From Deltaproteobacteria bacterium (lineage in GTDB: Bacteria; Desulfobacterota; Desulfobacteria; Desulfobacterales; Desulfosarcinaceae), in contig JAKALP010000004.1 of assembly GCA_021824175.1 (NCBI GenBank), forward strand, positions 124,001-188,000: a stretch of DNA of 64,000 bases, written 5' to 3'. Made by a program: the position numbers and the translations under genes. The notes beneath the pieces were generated by a model. The model had not been told where the DNA came from. It searched no databases and saw only the letters and a list, made by a program, of their open reading frames with translations. Of this stretch, positions 35,107-41,374 are shown piece after piece; positions within the stretch are counted from its first letter, which is position 1; every line of letters starts with the position of its first letter.

Positions 35107-35294
35107 TTCGTTGATTGGTTGATTCGTTGATTGGTCGATTTGACCATTCAATCGATCAAAGCGTGACCGCATCGTAAAAAGTGCCAGTGATGTCTCTTGC
35201 GCTCCAGCGTGCCGGGCGGGGATGACATTTACGATCATGGTGCTGCTTTTCCGAGTGCATTAACGAATCAACGAATCAACGACTCAACGAATTA
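35107..35294. repeat. Composite repeat: family F arms around a family B element
   Basis: Left outer arm TTCGTTGATTGGTTGATTCG (35106-35125, continuing to about 35137) is mirrored by AACGAATCAACGAATCAACG (35261-35280). Inside, starting near 35175, lies a diverged family B element (TCGTAAAAAG at its left end, GGGGATGACATTTACGATC at its right). The right outer arm extends into the last codons of the minus-strand gene at 35276. The same nested layout is seen at 43701-44036. Confidence 0.75.
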
Positions 35295-36394
35295 ACCGCC
35301 ATCTCCGGGCGCGAGATCAGCGTTTTAAAAAGTTGCGGTTCAGAGGTGTAGAGGGCCACGGCTGGTTTGACGCCCAAGCCGTTCACCACCCGGATGCCCT
35401 GCCGCAAATAGCGGTATTGCTCCAAGGTATCGCGCTCGGCCAGAGAGGCGGCCAATTCCTGGTCGAGCCCGGCTGCCGGCAGATGGGCCAGCAGCTGGGG
35501 CATGAGCTGAGCCACCAATCCCCCCACCATGGCTTCTTCCACCTGCATCCAGCCATCGACCACTTGCCGCACCTCCTCCAGGGATTTGGGTTGGAGCTGG
35601 GCAATGGTTTCACGGATGGCGGATTCGGTGGCCGGGCGCAAGCCGATGTGCAGGGTCTCTTCCACCGGCGCCACCAGTACATTGATGGGGTTTTTGGCCG
35701 AGTTTTGCCAAAGGGTATAAGGCTCGCGGGCAAACTCCACCGTGGAGTTTTGGCCTATCGTCATTTTCGAGGAGTATGACCCGATTTTACCGGTAAAGAC
35801 CCGGTTGCTCAGCTTAATCTTGATTTTGCTTTCGGACTTTTCCTGGGTGAAGAAGAGGTACTCCTCGATATACTCGTCGGCGATGTCGTGCACGATGTAA
35901 GCCGTGATGCCCTTGTCGGCGGCCGTATCCGGCAGCCTGACCGGCTCCCGCATGGTGGTGATGCAGCAGTAGGGATTGGACCATTCGGTTTGCCGCAACA
36001 CAAACGTCACGGCGGTCCTGCAATAGGTTTCAAATAGATCGGCATACTCGGCCCGTTTTTCCGTGACCACCAAGAGACGCTTGGAGGAGCCGGCCAGTTT
36101 CCACTGCAGGCTTTGGGCCGCCAGGCTCGTCTGGATCTGCTCCAGCAGGCCCCGATTGCCGTTCAGATAGGCGATGTTTTCCCGATTGAGTTGTTGATCG
36201 AACTGCCCTTGGCAATCGTGGAGCAATACCAGGGGGCCTTCCGGGGTGGTTTCCTTGATGAAGCTTAGCAATCGGTTATAGTCAAGAACTGGGGCGGCGG
36301 GACAGTCAGGGTTGGCGGCCAGGCTTGGCGCAGCATAGAGAAACATCACGGCAATAATCCAAAGCACCTGTCGTTGGCGTATCCAGTAGGCCAT
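35276..36394 (-). CDS. Secreted protein of unknown function, C-terminus made by a repeat
   Basis: A signal peptide (MAYWIRQRQVLWIIAVMFLYAAPSLA) with an AGGG ribosome site leads a 372-aa protein I do not recognise. The middle has a two-cysteine NPYCCITT segment and a likely beta-rich region (KIKIKLSNRVFTGKIGSYSSKM); the rest is helical (ATESAIRETIAQLQPKSLEEV). The last residues (VNSLSR and stop) are encoded by the family F repeat arm, so the original C-terminus may have been replaced. There is no adjacent partner on the strand. Probably periplasmic or surface located. Confidence 0.7.
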   Translation of the reverse strand: MAYWIRQRQVLWIIAVMFLYAAPSLAANPDCPAAPVLDYNRLLSFIKETTPEGPLVLLHDCQGQFDQQLNRENIAYLNGNRGLLEQIQTSLAAQSLQWKLAGSSKRLLVVTEKRAEYADLFETYCRTAVTFVLRQTEWSNPYCCITTMREPVRLPDTAADKGITAYIVHDIADEYIEEYLFFTQEKSESKIKIKLSNRVFTGKIGSYSSKMTIGQNSTVEFAREPYTLWQNSAKNPINVLVAPVEETLHIGLRPATESAIRETIAQLQPKSLEEVRQVVDGWMQVEEAMVGGLVAQLMPQLLAHLPAAGLDQELAASLAERDTLEQYRYLRQGIRVVNGLGVKPAVALYTSEPQLFKTLISRPEMAVNSLSR

Positions 36395-36747
36395 CGTATC
36401 CCTTTTCGCTGCTAACGGTTATCAAATGGGGGGCCTCTATTTCAAGGAGGCTTGGCCGCCCTGAAGGATTCAGCAAGAAACAGGCCAACGCGCGATTGCC
36501 GCCAGCATAGAGCATGATGGCAAAAAACATCGGGAAATATGAAAGATTTACGGTCGGATGATCCGGTTTGGGGACTCGGGCGGGGCCTTGGATATTTCCC
36601 CGGCCAGGTTCCCTTGACGGTTTTGCGTTGGGCAATTGACGAATAGCGGCTCAGCCGCATTTCAATCAAATATTTACAACAAAGAACGGAACAGGTAATG
36701 TCCGGCCCACTCGGAAACGCCACTTCTGTTTGTAATAAAGGATAGTC
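36395..36747. other. Divergent intergenic region, nothing recognised
   Basis: 350 bases between divergent genes. It must hold both promoters, and the acyl-CoA dehydrogenase ribosome site (AAAGGATAG) lies at its end. CAATCAAATATTTACAACAA at 36663 is A+T-rich, but I cannot define -35/-10 boxes. No repeats or ORFs of merit. Confidence 0.5.
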
Positions 36748-37893
36748 ATGACTGAGCCAATGTTAGATGCCAAACATCGCGTGTTGCGCAGAACCGTGCG
36801 CGCCTTTTGTGAACAAGAGATCGGCCCCATCGCGGCCGAGATCGACCAGGAAGCCCGTTTTCCCTGGGAAGTAATGGAGAAAATGGGGCAACTGGGCTAC
36901 TTCGGCATCCAGGCGCCCACCGAACTGGGCGGCGCCGGGCTCGATACCATCAGCTACGCCATCATCATCGAAGAGATATCGCGGGTCAGCGGCAGCATCG
37001 GCTTGTGCCTGAGCGTGCATAACAGCGTGGCCCTGTTTCCCATTCTGAAATTCGGCACACCTGAGCAGCACCAGCGCTGGGTGCCGCCCCTGGCCGGTGG
37101 CAAGAAGATCGGCGCCTTTTGTCTGACCGAACCCAACGTGGGCTCGGACGCCAGCGCCATCACGGCCACGGCCCTGCCCAACGATGACCACTGGCTGGTC
37201 AATGCCAATAAAGTATTTGTCACCAACGGCGGCATTGCCGACATCTGTTTGATCTTTGCCCGCACTGACCCGGCCGCGGGCCGCAAAGGCATCAGCGTGG
37301 TGGTGGCTGAGCGCGGCACCAAGGGTTTTGTGGTGGGCGATTTGGAAGATCTGTGCGGTATGCGCGGCAACCCGGTCTCCTCCATCCGGCTATATGACTG
37401 CAAAGTGCCCAAGGAGAATTTGCTGGGCCGCGTGGGCCAGGGTTTGGCCATAGGGTTGGCAGCCTTGGATACCGGCCGCATCGGCATTGGCGCCCAGGCT
37501 TTGGGCATTGCCCAGGGAGCCCTGGATGAAGCGGTGCGCTACGCCAATCAGCGCCAACAGTTCGGCGTGCCCCTGGGACGCCACCAGGCCATTCAAATGA
37601 TGATCGCCGACATGGCCACCCAGGTGGACGCGGCCCGCATGCTGGTCTATCGCGCGGCCTGGCTCAAGGACCAGGGCGAGCCGGTGGGCAAGGCCGCGGC
37701 CCAGGCCAAACTCTTCGCGGCCGAGGCCGCCGGAGTAGTCACCGACCTGGCCGTGCAGATCCACGGCGGCTACGGGTACTCCAAGGCTTACGCCGTGGAG
37801 CGTTACTACCGCGATGCCCGGGTGACACGCATTTACGAAGGTACGTCGGAAGTACATCGCATGGTAATTGCCAGGGAAGTATTGGGGGGGTAG
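36748..37893 (+). CDS. Acyl-CoA dehydrogenase
   Basis: FAD enzyme that introduces the 2,3 double bond into acyl-CoA and hands electrons to ETF. 381 aa with the three usual domains: N-terminal helices, middle beta domain (FCLTEPNVGSDAS, the flavin-contact motif; KVFVTNGGIADICLIFA) and C-terminal helices (QFGVPLGRHQAIQMMIADM). Catalytic base Glu364 in YEGTSEVHR, as in short/medium-chain enzymes. The ATG at 36748 follows AAAGGATAGTC. The ETF genes follow at 38250 in the same direction, past a composite repeat of about 300 bases, so functional coupling is very likely. Chain-length preference not readable. Confidence 0.95.
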   Translation: MTEPMLDAKHRVLRRTVRAFCEQEIGPIAAEIDQEARFPWEVMEKMGQLGYFGIQAPTELGGAGLDTISYAIIIEEISRVSGSIGLCLSVHNSVALFPILKFGTPEQHQRWVPPLAGGKKIGAFCLTEPNVGSDASAITATALPNDDHWLVNANKVFVTNGGIADICLIFARTDPAAGRKGISVVVAERGTKGFVVGDLEDLCGMRGNPVSSIRLYDCKVPKENLLGRVGQGLAIGLAALDTGRIGIGAQALGIAQGALDEAVRYANQRQQFGVPLGRHQAIQMMIADMATQVDAARMLVYRAAWLKDQGEPVGKAAAQAKLFAAEAAGVVTDLAVQIHGGYGYSKAYAVERYYRDARVTRIYEGTSEVHRMVIAREVLGG

Positions 37894-37940
37894 CGTAAGA
37901 TTTTAAGAAGATTCTGTTCTGGGAGAGTATTAAGGAGAGT

Positions 37941-38200
37941 TTTAAGTTTAAAGTTTAAAGTTTTAAGTTAAGGAATACTGCCATTGGATTTAAAGAGTTT
38001 TTTAAGATAGAATACCTTAACTTTGATGGCCTCGTAAAAAGCCGCTCGGTGTCCGTTAACGTCATCCCCGCGCAGGCGGGGAACCAGTAATTTTAGTCGT
38101 TTCTGGATTCCCGCCTGCGCGGGAATGACGCTCTTACGGACTTTCTACGTATAAAGGTAGAATACCTTAACTTCAAACTTAAAATTTTAGACTTTAAACC
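37941..38200. repeat. Composite repeat: family H arms around a family B element
   Basis: Outer arms are TTTAAAGTTTTAAGTTAAGG (left, near 37954-37973) and CCTTAACTTCAAACTTAAAA then TTTTAGACTTTAAACC (right, 38164-38200). Inside is a full family B dyad: GTCATCCCCGCGCAGGCGGG (38061) against CTGGATTCCCGCCTGCGCGG (38103) and GAATGAC. The B element (38024-38154) is bracketed by a near-perfect 19-base direct repeat, AGATAGAATACCTTAACTT at 38005 and AGGTAGAATACCTTAACTT at 38155. No gene lies in the 37894-38249 gap. Confidence 0.82.
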
Positions 38201-38249
38201 TTCTAGAACCATCCTTGGCCACAAAGAAGTAAAAACAGAAGAGTCCCTT

Positions 38250-39029
38250 ATGCCCTTACACATCATCGTCTGCATCAAATCCGTCATCCGTACGGCCCCC
38301 GACGGGGTGGGCCGGCGCTCGCCGGACAATAGCGAACTCAATCTCTTCGACCGCCCGGCCCTGGAAGCGGCCTTGCAGCTCAAAGCTTCCCAGGACGCGT
38401 CCGTGACCGTGCTCTCCATGGGGCCGCCCGTGGCCGTGGAAGCATTGGCCGAAGCCCAGGCCATGGGCGCCGACCGCGCGGTCCTGATCAGTGATGCGGC
38501 CCTGGCCGGCTCCGATACCCTGGTGACTTCAAGGGTATTGGCCGCGGGCATCGCCCGTCTGGCGCCCTATGATTTAATCTTCTTCGGCACGCGCTCCTCG
38601 GACAGCGACACCGGCCAGGTCGGCCCCCAGACCGCCACCTTGCTCGATATCCCCTTTGTGGGCGGCGTGAAGCAGATCCAGGCGGGTCCAGAGGGTTGGG
38701 AAATCCAACGCCTCATGGATGATTGGGAAGAAGAGTGGCAGGTCGCATCGCCCGCCGCCGCCACCATCCATGCACGGGCCTTCAAACCCCGGCCTATTGC
38801 CTTGGTGGGTATCGCCCTGGCCCATCAACGGATCGATGTGCAGACCTGGAATCTCGCGGATCTCGGACTGGCGGCCCATCAGGTGGGATTGACCGGCTCG
38901 CCCACGCGGGTCACTAATTTGCAGAAAGTCAAACGCCAACGAACCTGCCGCATGCTGGAAGGCGAACCCCAACAACAGGTGGCAGCCCTGGTGGATTATC
39001 TTACGACCAAAGGTGTGATGGAATCATGA
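38250..39029 (+). CDS. etfB: Electron transfer flavoprotein beta subunit
   Basis: Small subunit of ETF, which carries electrons from acyl-CoA dehydrogenase to a membrane or soluble acceptor. 259 aa; MPLHIIVCIKSV at the N-terminus, NLFDRPALEAAL, and the AMP/FAD-contact motif DSDTGQVGPQTA at about residue 118. The ribosome site is weak (AGAAGAG). The beta subunit of confurcating or bifurcating ETFs binds a second FAD near this motif; I cannot assign that from sequence alone. It is separated from the alpha subunit gene by 130 bases containing a perfect family A hairpin, unusual for an etfBA pair. Confidence 0.94.
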   Translation: MPLHIIVCIKSVIRTAPDGVGRRSPDNSELNLFDRPALEAALQLKASQDASVTVLSMGPPVAVEALAEAQAMGADRAVLISDAALAGSDTLVTSRVLAAGIARLAPYDLIFFGTRSSDSDTGQVGPQTATLLDIPFVGGVKQIQAGPEGWEIQRLMDDWEEEWQVASPAAATIHARAFKPRPIALVGIALAHQRIDVQTWNLADLGLAAHQVGLTGSPTRVTNLQKVKRQRTCRMLEGEPQQQVAALVDYLTTKGVMES

Positions 39030-39081: not shown

Positions 39082-39144
39082 ATCCGTGCCATCCGTGTAA
39101 TCCGTGGTCAATTTTTTACCACGGATTACACGGATGGCACGGAT
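39082..39144. repeat. Dyad repeat, family A (copy 2), between etfB and etfA
   Basis: A perfect 27-base inverted repeat: arms 39082-39108 (containing ATCCGTGTAATCCGTGGT) and 39118-39144, loop of nine mostly T. It lies between the stop of etfB and the start of etfA within the presumed operon. The hairpin plus T-rich loop could affect mRNA stability or relative expression. Confidence 0.88.
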
Positions 39145-39159
39145 GGGTGGGACCGATAG

Positions 39160-40833
39160 ATGGATATTGAAAAAGATTATCAAACAGAAAAGAAGTCCAG
39201 CATGGGTAGTAAAGGCGATATCTGGATTTATGGTGATTTGCGCACGCAGCGCCACTGGCACGAAAGTCTGAAAGTCATGGCCAAGGCCCTGCCCCTGGCC
39301 CAGGCCGCCCAGCGCGGCGTGAGCATGATTTTGCTGGGAGGACCACCCAAGTCGGCGGACAGTGCCTGTGCCGTTGATCTCACCGCCTGCGTGGGAATGC
39401 ATGAAGCAGCAGATCAGGCCGCGGCCCTGGGCGCCCAAAGCGTCTATTGTTTAGAGCATGCCGATCTATCCGTGCCGCGGCCCGATATGCATGCGGCCGT
39501 GCTGGGTGATTTGGTGCGCGAGCGCCGCCCCTGGCTGGTGCTGCTGCCCCTCAATGATTTCGGCCGCGAAACCGCGGCCATTTGCGCCCAGCGCTGCCAG
39601 GCCGGCATGATCGCCGACTGCGTGGAACTGCGCCTCAAGGAGGGCCATTTCGTGGGCCGCTGCCCGGCCTGGGGCGGACAGATCATGGCCGATATCGGTT
39701 TGGCCGACGGTTGGACCACGGCCTTTGTCACGGTGCAGCCCCACGGCGCCGAACGGCTTGCAATTGGGGCATCCAAAGGCCGCATCGAAACCATGATCCC
39801 CAAACAAGTAAAGCTGCCCCAACAGGCCCATCTCATCAAACGCAGCCTGGAAGCCAAAGGCACCGTGCGCCTGGAAGAAGCCGAAACCGTGGTGGTGGGC
39901 GGCGCGGGACTGGGAGATATGCGCGGTTTCGGACTGGTGCGCGAACTGGCCGCGGCCCTGGGCGGCGAAGTCGCGGCCACCCGGCCGCCGGTGCTCTACC
40001 ACTGGGTGGACGAAGAGCGCCTCATCGGCCAGACCGGCAAAACCGTGCGGCCCAAGCTGCTCATATCCGCCGGCACCTCCGGCGCCATTCAATATACAGC
40101 CAGCATCATGGAATCCGAGACCATTGTGGCCATCAACCGCGATCCCGGCGCCCCCATTTTTCAAATAGCGGATATCGGCATTGCCGCCGACGCCAATGTG
40201 ATCCTGCCCCTGCTCAACCAGCGCGCCCAGCAGGCCGCCATGCGCCGCCTGGCCGACGCCAGCTGCACCCTTTCACCCGAGACATCCACGGATACGCCCA
40301 AGACCGGTTTCGGCGCCATGGTGCGCCAACTGCGCCAGGCCCGCGACTGGAGTCAGGAGCAATTGGCCCACGCCACCGGCCAGAGCCCCGAGTTCATCGC
40401 CCAGGTGGAAAACGACCAGCTCTCGCCGCCCGTGGGCTTTATCCTGCGCATGGCCCAGGCCATGAAGATCGATCCCAGTACCTTCTTGAACAAAGAAGAA
40501 CGCGCCGCCATCCGCGACCGCCGCGCCCAGGCCTACTATCAGCGCACCCAGGCCTACAGTTATACTACCCTGACCCCCGATGGCGCCAACAGCCACCTGC
40601 GCGCCTTCATGATCACCATCGAAGCCCAGCGCGACCACAAACCCGTGGCCTACAAGCACGAAGGCGAAGAGTTCATTTACGTCATGGAAGGGGATCTGGG
40701 CCTGACCCTGGACGCCAAAGAGCACACCCTCAAACCCGGCGAATCCATCCACTTCAACTCCGACGTGCCCCACAAACTCAAAAGTCTTTCCACGCAGGCG
40801 ACGCGGTGTTTGGTGGTGCTTTATACGGTATAG
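39160..40833 (+). CDS. etfA: EtfA fused to XRE DNA-binding and cupin domains
   Basis: A single uninterrupted frame of 557 aa. Residues about 16-215 are the ETF alpha N-terminal domain and about 235-355 the FAD domain with its signature GTSGAIQYTASIMES, IVAINRDPGAPIF and IADIGIAADANVILPLL. After a short linker (LSPETSTDTPKTGF) comes an XRE-type helix-turn-helix (384-440; MVRQLRQARDWSQEQLAHAT, then FIAQVENDQLSPPVGFILRM), and residues 480-555 are a cupin_2 barrel (YKHEGEEFIYVMEGDLGLTL, LKPGESIHFNSDVPHKL). XRE-cupin proteins usually stand alone as regulators. All three parts look intact. Starts at 39160 or 39202 are both possible and ribosome sites are weak. This could be a flavin- or redox-aware regulator or a tethering device (inference). 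Confidence 0.95.
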   Translation: MDIEKDYQTEKKSSMGSKGDIWIYGDLRTQRHWHESLKVMAKALPLAQAAQRGVSMILLGGPPKSADSACAVDLTACVGMHEAADQAAALGAQSVYCLEHADLSVPRPDMHAAVLGDLVRERRPWLVLLPLNDFGRETAAICAQRCQAGMIADCVELRLKEGHFVGRCPAWGGQIMADIGLADGWTTAFVTVQPHGAERLAIGASKGRIETMIPKQVKLPQQAHLIKRSLEAKGTVRLEEAETVVVGGAGLGDMRGFGLVRELAAALGGEVAATRPPVLYHWVDEERLIGQTGKTVRPKLLISAGTSGAIQYTASIMESETIVAINRDPGAPIFQIADIGIAADANVILPLLNQRAQQAAMRRLADASCTLSPETSTDTPKTGFGAMVRQLRQARDWSQEQLAHATGQSPEFIAQVENDQLSPPVGFILRMAQAMKIDPSTFLNKEERAAIRDRRAQAYYQRTQAYSYTTLTPDGANSHLRAFMITIEAQRDHKPVAYKHEGEEFIYVMEGDLGLTLDAKEHTLKPGESIHFNSDVPHKLKSLSTQATRCLVVLYTV

Positions 40834-40840
40834 CGTGTTT

Positions 40841-41020
40841 TGGTTGATTCGTTGATTGGTTGATTCGTAGGGTGCGTTTTACGCACCAGTCGCAATTCAC
40901 TTGGTGTATGAAATGCACCCTACGATGTGGCCATGGCGAAAGATCGGGCGAAGTTCTGCAGGGTGCGTTTTACGCACCATCGGCTATTCCCAGCCCTTTG
41001 GTGCATGAAATTCACCCCCA
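40841..41020. repeat. Family F arm plus family C dyads
   Basis: TGGTTGATTCGTTGATTGGT (40841-40860) is a family F arm directly followed by TGATTCGTAGGGTGCGTTTT, the start of a family C-like dyad (GGGTGCGTTTTACGCACC against GGTGTATGAAATGCACCC). A second, shorter copy begins at 40960. These fill most of the gap between etfA and the VapB gene. Confidence 0.75.
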
Positions 41021-41131: not shown

Positions 41132-41374
41132 ATGCGTCGATCCGCCAAACTATTCATGAAAGGCCGCAGTCAAGCAGTTCGGTTGCCGTCAGCCTTCCGT
41201 TTTGACTGCAAGGAAGTATTTATCCGCAAAGACCCTCTCACCGGTGACGTCATTCTTTCGCGCAAGCCGGGATCTTGGGAAGATTTCTTCAAGCTAATGG
41301 AGACGATTCCCGTACCGGATGATTTCATGGCGGATCGAATCAGCGAGCCGCCCTCGGATCGTGATCCGTTTTAA
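41132..41374 (+). CDS. VapB-type antitoxin, solitary
   Basis: 80 aa starting [20 protein letters not shown], the typical swapped-hairpin AbrB/SpoVT DNA-binding domain of VapB antitoxins ([15 protein letters not shown]), followed by [15 protein letters not shown]. The acidic tail ([15 protein letters not shown]) would normally wrap a VapC toxin. GAGGAGG lies at ideal spacing. Upstream, TATATCTTGATATA and GGTATATGTAA could be operator/promoter sequence. No PIN-domain toxin (VapC) follows: the next 640 bases hold no ORF with its motifs. It may be an orphan repressor, an anti-addiction module or a remnant. Confidence 0.85.

Follow-up and report, generated by a model that had tools for sequence, protein, structure and literature searches.

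The window analysed here, a 64,000-nucleotide stretch of DNA from a bacterium of the Desulfosarcinaceae, carries on its forward strand an operon that opens with an acyl-CoA dehydrogenase (ACD) gene of the short-chain/butyryl type (acd, 36748-37893, assigned by Pfam and a PDB match), continues with etfB for the beta subunit of an electron transfer flavoprotein (ETF; 38250-39029, Pfam ETF E 6.7e-35) and ends in an open reading frame (ORF) of 557 residues that is stop-free throughout (39160-40833). In the PDB the dehydrogenase best matches the Bcd subunit of the Bcd-Etf complex from C. difficile (5ol2_C, E 1.1e-123), and EtfB best matches CarD (6fah_B, E 4.6e-34). Divergent from acd, on the reverse strand, lies a gene for a 372-residue protein with a signal-like N terminus, judged by eye, and no Pfam match (35276-36394); an 80-residue protein without a Pfam match, which we take by eye to resemble antitoxins of the VapB/AbrB type, is encoded at 41132-41374.

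Along the ORF, Pfam places an ETF domain (residues 82-211), the FAD-binding ETF_alpha domain (238-316, E 4.6e-26), an XRE-type helix-turn-helix (HTH_3, 388-440, E 8.2e-10) and a Cupin_2 domain (486-553, E 3.4e-15), each above its curated cut-off. With no internal stop, this confirms an earlier note made on this DNA, which had described a complete EtfA, an HTH and a cupin_2 domain in a single frame. The first 14 codons (39160-39201) are probably untranslated and the true start is probably Met15 at 39202, because most full-length homologues begin to align at residues 9-21 of the ORF and the genus copies 2-5 residues past Met15. Counted from there, the etfA::XRE-cupin fusion gene (39202-40833, forward strand) specifies 543 residues. 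It comprises the ETF alpha part (39202-40254, with the Pfam ETF match at 39403-39792 and the FAD domain at 39871-40107), a flexible linker marked by low pLDDT, low identity and its pN/pS (residues 366-383, 40255-40308), the HTH with a net charge of -1, helical in both structure models (40321-40479), a connector with R462, Y466 and Y468 (557-residue numbering, as throughout; 40543-40563) and the Cupin_2 barrel, in which Y498, H500, E504 and H538 form a candidate metal/ligand site by virtue of their invariance (40615-40818).

The ETF alpha half appears complete. It matches PDB 7koe_B (E 1.5e-42), the EtfA chains of 5ol2 and 6fah are among its four best matches, and its FAD-domain residues (T-R, GQTG, SGAxQ and N-x-D) are invariant or at least 90% conserved across 22 fusions; the fusion would thus be expected to have ETF activity. 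The earlier impression that all motifs look functional holds for the FAD-site and cupin-site residues, which are kept, but not for the GxSGAxQH motif, whose His is replaced by Tyr or Phe in every fused row, nor for the HTH, which is acidic. The same replacement is found in the unfused EtfA of L028, L029, L031, L032, L093, L118 and L130, and the His is retained in the unfused EtfA of L002, L004, L030, L033 and L034. As to membership in the bifurcating (group II) ETFs, the nearest solved EtfB is CarD, yet QAID and the N-terminal KQVPD, which we take to be EtfB motifs of the bifurcating relatives, are altered in the EtfB of this operon.

The gene order acd-etfB-fusion recurs in 17 of 21 fusion loci of one set and in 15 of the 18 fusion loci from named genomes (among the best 80 of 571 relatives), two sets that overlap and in which acd and etfB of one locus, L056, were missed by ORF calling and placed by a further look. 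Contig ends truncate three of the exceptions (L060, L064 and L026), and an etfB neighbour is absent in L060 and L064 alone, both cut by the contig start. In L052, L053 and L072 of family f12 (L072 lies on the contig of L053) no ACD gene stands directly upstream and EtfB is considerably lengthened at its N terminus, in L052 by about 340 residues that have no Pfam match; in L049 the upstream genes are sugar genes. Extended EtfB proteins adjoining the fusion were located at L052:4569-6341, L053:7122-8894 and L026:3-1274. By ORF calls in 31 loci, some of them counted twice, etfB and the fusion gene are spaced by 10 bp or less or overlap in 20, including a 4-bp overlap in 7; in L056, too, the two genes read as overlapping by ATGA. 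Such tight coupling suggests that the fusion is made in enzyme-like amounts, which would be odd for a regulator.

In the window itself the gap between etfB and the ORF measures 130 bp and holds a palindromic repeat with 30-nt arms that are 97% complementary (39082-39144), which precedes the first ORF codons. This element is dispersed, with 80 matches on both strands, or about 40 places, in the 6.07-Mb genome (40 of 76 candidates scored). It is a locally inserted element and not an operator, because the junction is short or overlapping in the genus copies (15 bp or less in seven, measured from alignment ends) and in most other loci. The gap between acd and etfB (37894-38249) contains a 31-nt inverted repeat at 38060-38130 (CGTCATCCCCGCG...CGGGAATGACG), which looks like a dispersed repeat as well, together with AT-rich repeats. 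Downstream of the fusion gene, at 40865-40985, AGGGTGCGTTTTACGCACC occurs twice, each copy being an inverted repeat.

EtfA proteins with a C-terminal HTH_3 and Cupin_2 recur in the Desulfobacterota, and the protein of the window is no one-off: fusions with both halves were found in at least 22 of 395 genomes across the phylum, its own genome counted, under nine family labels, a lower bound with at most three candidates scored per genome. In a collection overlapping this sample, they make up 18 of 80 loci from named genomes (L056-L073; the best 80 of 571 relatives), the others being 52 stand-alone modules, one EtfA without a module (L130) and nine loci unmatched to an ORF (L078, L093, L094, L098, L108, L118, L133, L134 and L135), six of which are stand-alone modules absent from the 52. 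Just the final 84 residues are present in L134, at a contig start. The cultured Desulfosarcina cetonica JCM 12296 has the fusion (L060), and the stand-alone form of D. cetonica is L099. All 11 genomes of the genus of the window have a match, full length in eight; one is split by an apparent frameshift (G404) and two match only partially (G399 and G402). Within the family, 23 of 30 genomes match and 20 have both halves, one copy (G415) ending early with one stop. Three copies with both halves lie on one-contig assemblies. The comparisons below are based on 35 distinct fusions, from which repeats, identical over their final 400 residues, had been removed.

Conservation is unevenly spread along the protein. 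Among the 35 fusions, mean identity is 0.65 in the cupin, 0.52 in the HTH and 0.17 in the linker. In 13 close pairs, which have members in common and to which the copy of the window does not belong, dN/dS is 0-0.09 in the cupin and up to 0.37 in the EtfA domains; in the HTH it is 0.02-0.48 in 12 of the 13 (two above 0.3; one not computable), and pN peaks in the linker in 10. When the window is set against seven genus copies, pN/pS is about 0.1-0.4 in the HTH, 0.07-0.19 in the cupin and 0.63-1.0 in the linker. By these rates the folded domains are under purifying selection and the linker hardly is, and it is the low values in both HTH and cupin that indicate that the module is kept by selection. 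Broken or partial copies such as those noted above might be read as signs of chance, an assembly error or a dying read-through, a reading we reject as next to incredible given the both-half copies across phylum and family, three on one-contig assemblies, and dN/dS far below 1 in the folded domains. The fusion is, on this comparative evidence, an old and conserved protein of sulfate-reducing and related anaerobic bacteria.

The origin of its C-terminal third can be traced to a family of free-standing XRE-cupin proteins. These were gathered by similarity to the fusion profile, independent of their neighbours, and 43 of the 52 (within the best 80 of 571 relatives) are immediately followed, at 600 bp or less and in the same orientation, by an ACD gene. 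No ACD gene follows directly in L074-L077, L080, L083 and L125; L079 is cut by a contig end, and the next gene in L097 is an ACD gene outside the distance limits. One locus (L104) reads thiolase, 3-hydroxyacyl-CoA dehydrogenase, XRE-cupin, ACD. For four ACDs beside stand-alone modules the best NCBIfam model is acryloyl-CoA reductase, all below its cut-off. With 51 bits (E 1e-13), the match of the module to the NCBIfam model for PuuR stays below that model's cut-off of 211, and for the stand-alone proteins (three tested) no named model scored above cut-off. The fused module thus derives from a stand-alone XRE-cupin family adjoining ACD genes, and since these relatives mostly precede such genes, what has been welded to the ETF subunit is a local regulator module.

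Phylogeny favours a single fusion event: in a tree of 87 HTH-cupin rows, the fused modules fall on one side of a branch with SH-aLRT 81. In the EtfA tree (49 rows, 35 of them fused) three changes of the fusion label are required, and starred branches force two of these. An unfused EtfA of the same operon, L028, sits inside a 25-row clade that is otherwise fused (support 100), most simply explained by loss of the module, with the ETF kept, in the L028/L054 lineage. The genome of L028 (G313) has a stand-alone module elsewhere. The gene at L054:7047-8105 is the same as that at L028:1501-2529; immediately after it comes a second etf pair in convergent orientation. The clade L025-L027 is not resolved from unfused rows in the EtfA tree and may represent a second fusion origin.

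Alignments of 24 and 33 fused and stand-alone modules (L115, whose range held a stop, was left out of the smaller) show which residues are common to both forms. Invariant are R462, Y466, Y468, Y498 and H500, and further G502, E503, E504, F505 and H538; the first three are R85, Y89 and Y91 in alignment numbering. E417 and V425 are the only invariant residues of the HTH, most others lying in or before the cupin. The cupin pocket, made up of R, Y, Y, H-x3-E and H, is thereby the same in all aligned modules. The motif H-x3-E followed by a later His makes a plausible metal site.

In an AF2 model the fusion (pLDDT 83.6, pTM 0.45) consists of well-defined domains on a loose linker, whose pLDDT falls below 50 at model residues 356-365; the ETF alpha part is mostly confident except at model residues 55-58 and 207-219. 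Foldseek matches this model to EtfA of ETF complexes, then to the regulator 1y9q, then to the epoxidase HppE and its kin. For a model of the module alone (pLDDT 80.2, pTM 0.51) the top match is 1y9q (E 2.4e-14), followed by HppE (E 6.1e-12). By sequence profile the two are further apart, at E 5.9e-19 for 1y9q and 6.8e-8 for HppE, and a profile search for a residue-level alignment with HppE returned 3l2h as the only match. By sequence and Foldseek E-values the closest solved relative of the module is therefore a regulator, not an enzyme, TM-scores being equal (0.43 for 1y9q and 0.42 for HppE). The rmsd is about 12 A to both, and therefore the domain orientation of the module differs from both.

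HppE (hydroxypropylphosphonate epoxidase) is an enzyme of phosphonate biosynthesis which, like the module, joins an HTH-like part and a cupin in one chain, and we know of no HppE fused to a flavoprotein. The HTH-cupin part could accordingly be a mononuclear metal enzyme of the HppE/HEPD type, its metal taking electrons from the ETF flavin or protecting it. Its place directly behind 1y9q in Foldseek with an equal TM-score, a profile match spanning both HTH and cupin, and the invariant H500, E504 and H538, which form a 2-His-1-Glu-like H-x3-E...H that we take to be the arrangement of the HppE iron ligands, all speak for such an enzyme. We nevertheless consider it very unlikely: the regulator is by far the better match by sequence, a whole-chain rmsd equally large for both makes the fold comparison indecisive, and the known members use O2 or peroxide, which is hard to reconcile with strict anaerobes.

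That the module acts on DNA is less certain. The mean net charge of the HTH is -1.62 in 32 fusions and -1.33 in the other three, compared with +3.10 in 42 of the 52 stand-alone proteins and -1.10 in the remaining 10, of the Smithella type (best 80 of 571 relatives); since the sequences are related, a rank test on these charges overstates the difference. Lys and Arg in the 18 residues of recognition helix and loop average 0.56 (32) and 1.33 (3) in the fusions and 2.21 (42) and 1.60 (10) in the stand-alone proteins. As a control, HTH_3 domains of the same genome, not counting the fusion and five short or unprinted matches, have a mean charge of +3.4 (13 of 21 matches), or +2.8 over 15, among them the XRE-cupin relatives L149 and L150, when L142 (+1) and L147 (-3) are included; because these two belong in the control, the charge argument is slightly weaker. 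The acidic charge argues against DNA binding by the fused HTH, and the earlier description of it as DNA-binding is accordingly not fully convincing.

No convincing operator dyad was found in 28 regions upstream of fusion operons (one locus twice) or in 52 upstream of stand-alone genes, in a hunt for exact half-sites of 4-6 nt that imperfect palindromes could escape, with a weak control of 20 single-base shuffles and with ACD starts set by a fixed length, which puts some regions off by a few codons. In the fusion regions, T runs (up to 8 regions), GAAA-13 (7) and TCGA-5 (5) exceeded the shuffle maximum of 4 for 4-nt half-sites; TTTTT-5 (4) and GGATC-10, TGGAT-12 and GCCTG-4 (3 each) exceeded that of 2 for 5-nt half-sites, and four 6-nt dyads occurred in 2 regions each (maximum 1). 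Dyads in excess upstream of stand-alone genes were CCAT-1 (9), AGCC-4 and CCCA-0 (8 each; shuffle maximum 4) and TCCCA-0 (4; maximum 3), and by eye these were attributed to the start codon and to the final coding stretch of the preceding gene. The sole conserved block upstream of acd in an alignment of nine genus loci is TTTACA, present in eight and absent in L176, followed 17 nt later by TAATGT in five and by TAATAA or TAAGGT in three. By eye it reads as a promoter, and by eye no dyad was seen in the same nine loci; an operator may sit inside the promoter block. The operators formerly suspected in 36395-36747 and 37894-38249 were thus not borne out by any specific site, and the latter region holds the repeats described above. 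In 7 of the 35 fusions the HTH is preceded by a start codon that has an SD-like 4-mer, against 6 of 35 in the ORF-start control. In Pseudomonas, XRE-cupin proteins act locally, binding palindromes and repressing adjacent metabolic genes (PMC7901475), and for this reason the lack of a palindromic operator in the regions searched counts against a regulator.

These observations fit a module that no longer binds DNA and has an allosteric or docking role, with the cupin binding a ligand or metal and the HTH serving subunit contacts, so as to gate or tether the ETF and its dehydrogenase. We regard this as a serious possibility, though clearly short of an even chance. Besides the acidic HTH with its few basic residues and the failure to find a convincing operator, the better conservation of the cupin than of the HTH and the close coupling to etfB point towards it. 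Against it stand the purifying selection on the HTH, in which a recognition helix with P-E/D-F-I is kept in 28 of 35 fusions, and the fact that ordinary HTH_3 domains of the same genome may also lack basic residues in the recognition stretch (L137) or be acidic overall (L147, at -3).

Our best reading is that the fusion is an ETF that has its own ligand sensor and is plausibly an autogenous regulator in the manner of PutA. The ETF alpha part would pair with the product of the etfB gene immediately before it, and the resulting EtfAB would receive electrons from the dehydrogenase that acd of this operon encodes. The C-terminal third would be a local XRE-cupin regulator module on a flexible linker, whose cupin may bind a metal and a small ligand, presumably an acid or CoA ester of an acyl-CoA pathway. 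The ligand state, perhaps together with the flavin state, would decide how the protein acts, and the likeliest output would be autogenous control at the acd-etfBA promoter, as in the trigger flavoenzyme PutA, a proposal to which we give only a little less than an even chance. Domains of the XRE-cupin type, the conserved acd-etfB-etfA operon, the single branch that holds the fused modules, the selection on HTH and cupin, relatives whose genes stand beside ACD genes and the precedents of the Pseudomonas repressors and PutA argue for such autoregulation; the absence of a convincing operator, the acidic HTH, the tight coupling to etfB and the loss of the module in L028 and L054 argue against it. 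The coupling of an ETF to a regulator suggested in the earlier note therefore survives as far as the fusion, the complete ETF, the regulator-type module, the acd/etf locus and the ACD-adjacent relatives are concerned, and falters on the operator and the DNA-binding features. It seems rather unlikely that the ETF is itself the transcription factor, with flavin redox state and cupin ligand switching it between carrying electrons and binding its own promoter. Were this true, electron flux would be read directly by its carrier, which would make the fusion the first trigger protein among ETFs.

Each half of the fusion has known counterparts. Bcd-EtfAB and CarCDE (5ol2, 6fah) consist of the same gene set of dehydrogenase, EtfB and EtfA and include the closest solved relatives of the ACD and EtfB, the ACD being nearest to Bcd and CarC and EtfB to the Bcd-Etf and CarD proteins. 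These complexes differ in having a His where the fusion has Tyr or Phe in GxSGAxQH, in the EtfB motifs KQVPD and QAID, and in lacking an XRE-cupin module, in place of which CarE carries a ferredoxin domain at its N terminus (PMC5861303). XRE-cupin factors (PuuR, ErfA, PsdR and PauR; 1y9q) have the same HTH_3 and Cupin_2 and are local to metabolic genes (PMC7901475), whereas here the module is fused to EtfA, its HTH is acidic and a palindromic operator was not found in the upstream regions searched. PutA is an enzyme, not an electron carrier, and is not known to have a cupin. Trifunctional PutA is a catabolic flavoenzyme with its own DNA-binding domain (PMC5293562), and its likeness to the fusion is one of architecture only: the folds differ, PutA having an N-terminal ribbon-helix-helix.

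The earlier note knew of no described example, and in the open-licence literature we likewise found no description of an EtfA-XRE-cupin fusion, which is apparently undescribed there. A proteogenome paper on Desulfococcus multivorans deals with seven ETFs, and the words "cupin" and "XRE" are absent from its main text (PMC5109826).

The fusion provides a Rosetta-stone link: gene order connects a stand-alone XRE-cupin family with ACDs, and the fused form connects it with ETF. The culture of D. cetonica, which carries both the fusion (L060) and the stand-alone form (L099), makes the question of its function testable. ETFs are treated as passive carriers. For sulfate reducers and syntrophs, the age and conservation of a fusion between EtfA and the ligand-sensing part of local beta-oxidation regulators imply that either the carrier or its production may be under direct control by a ligand.
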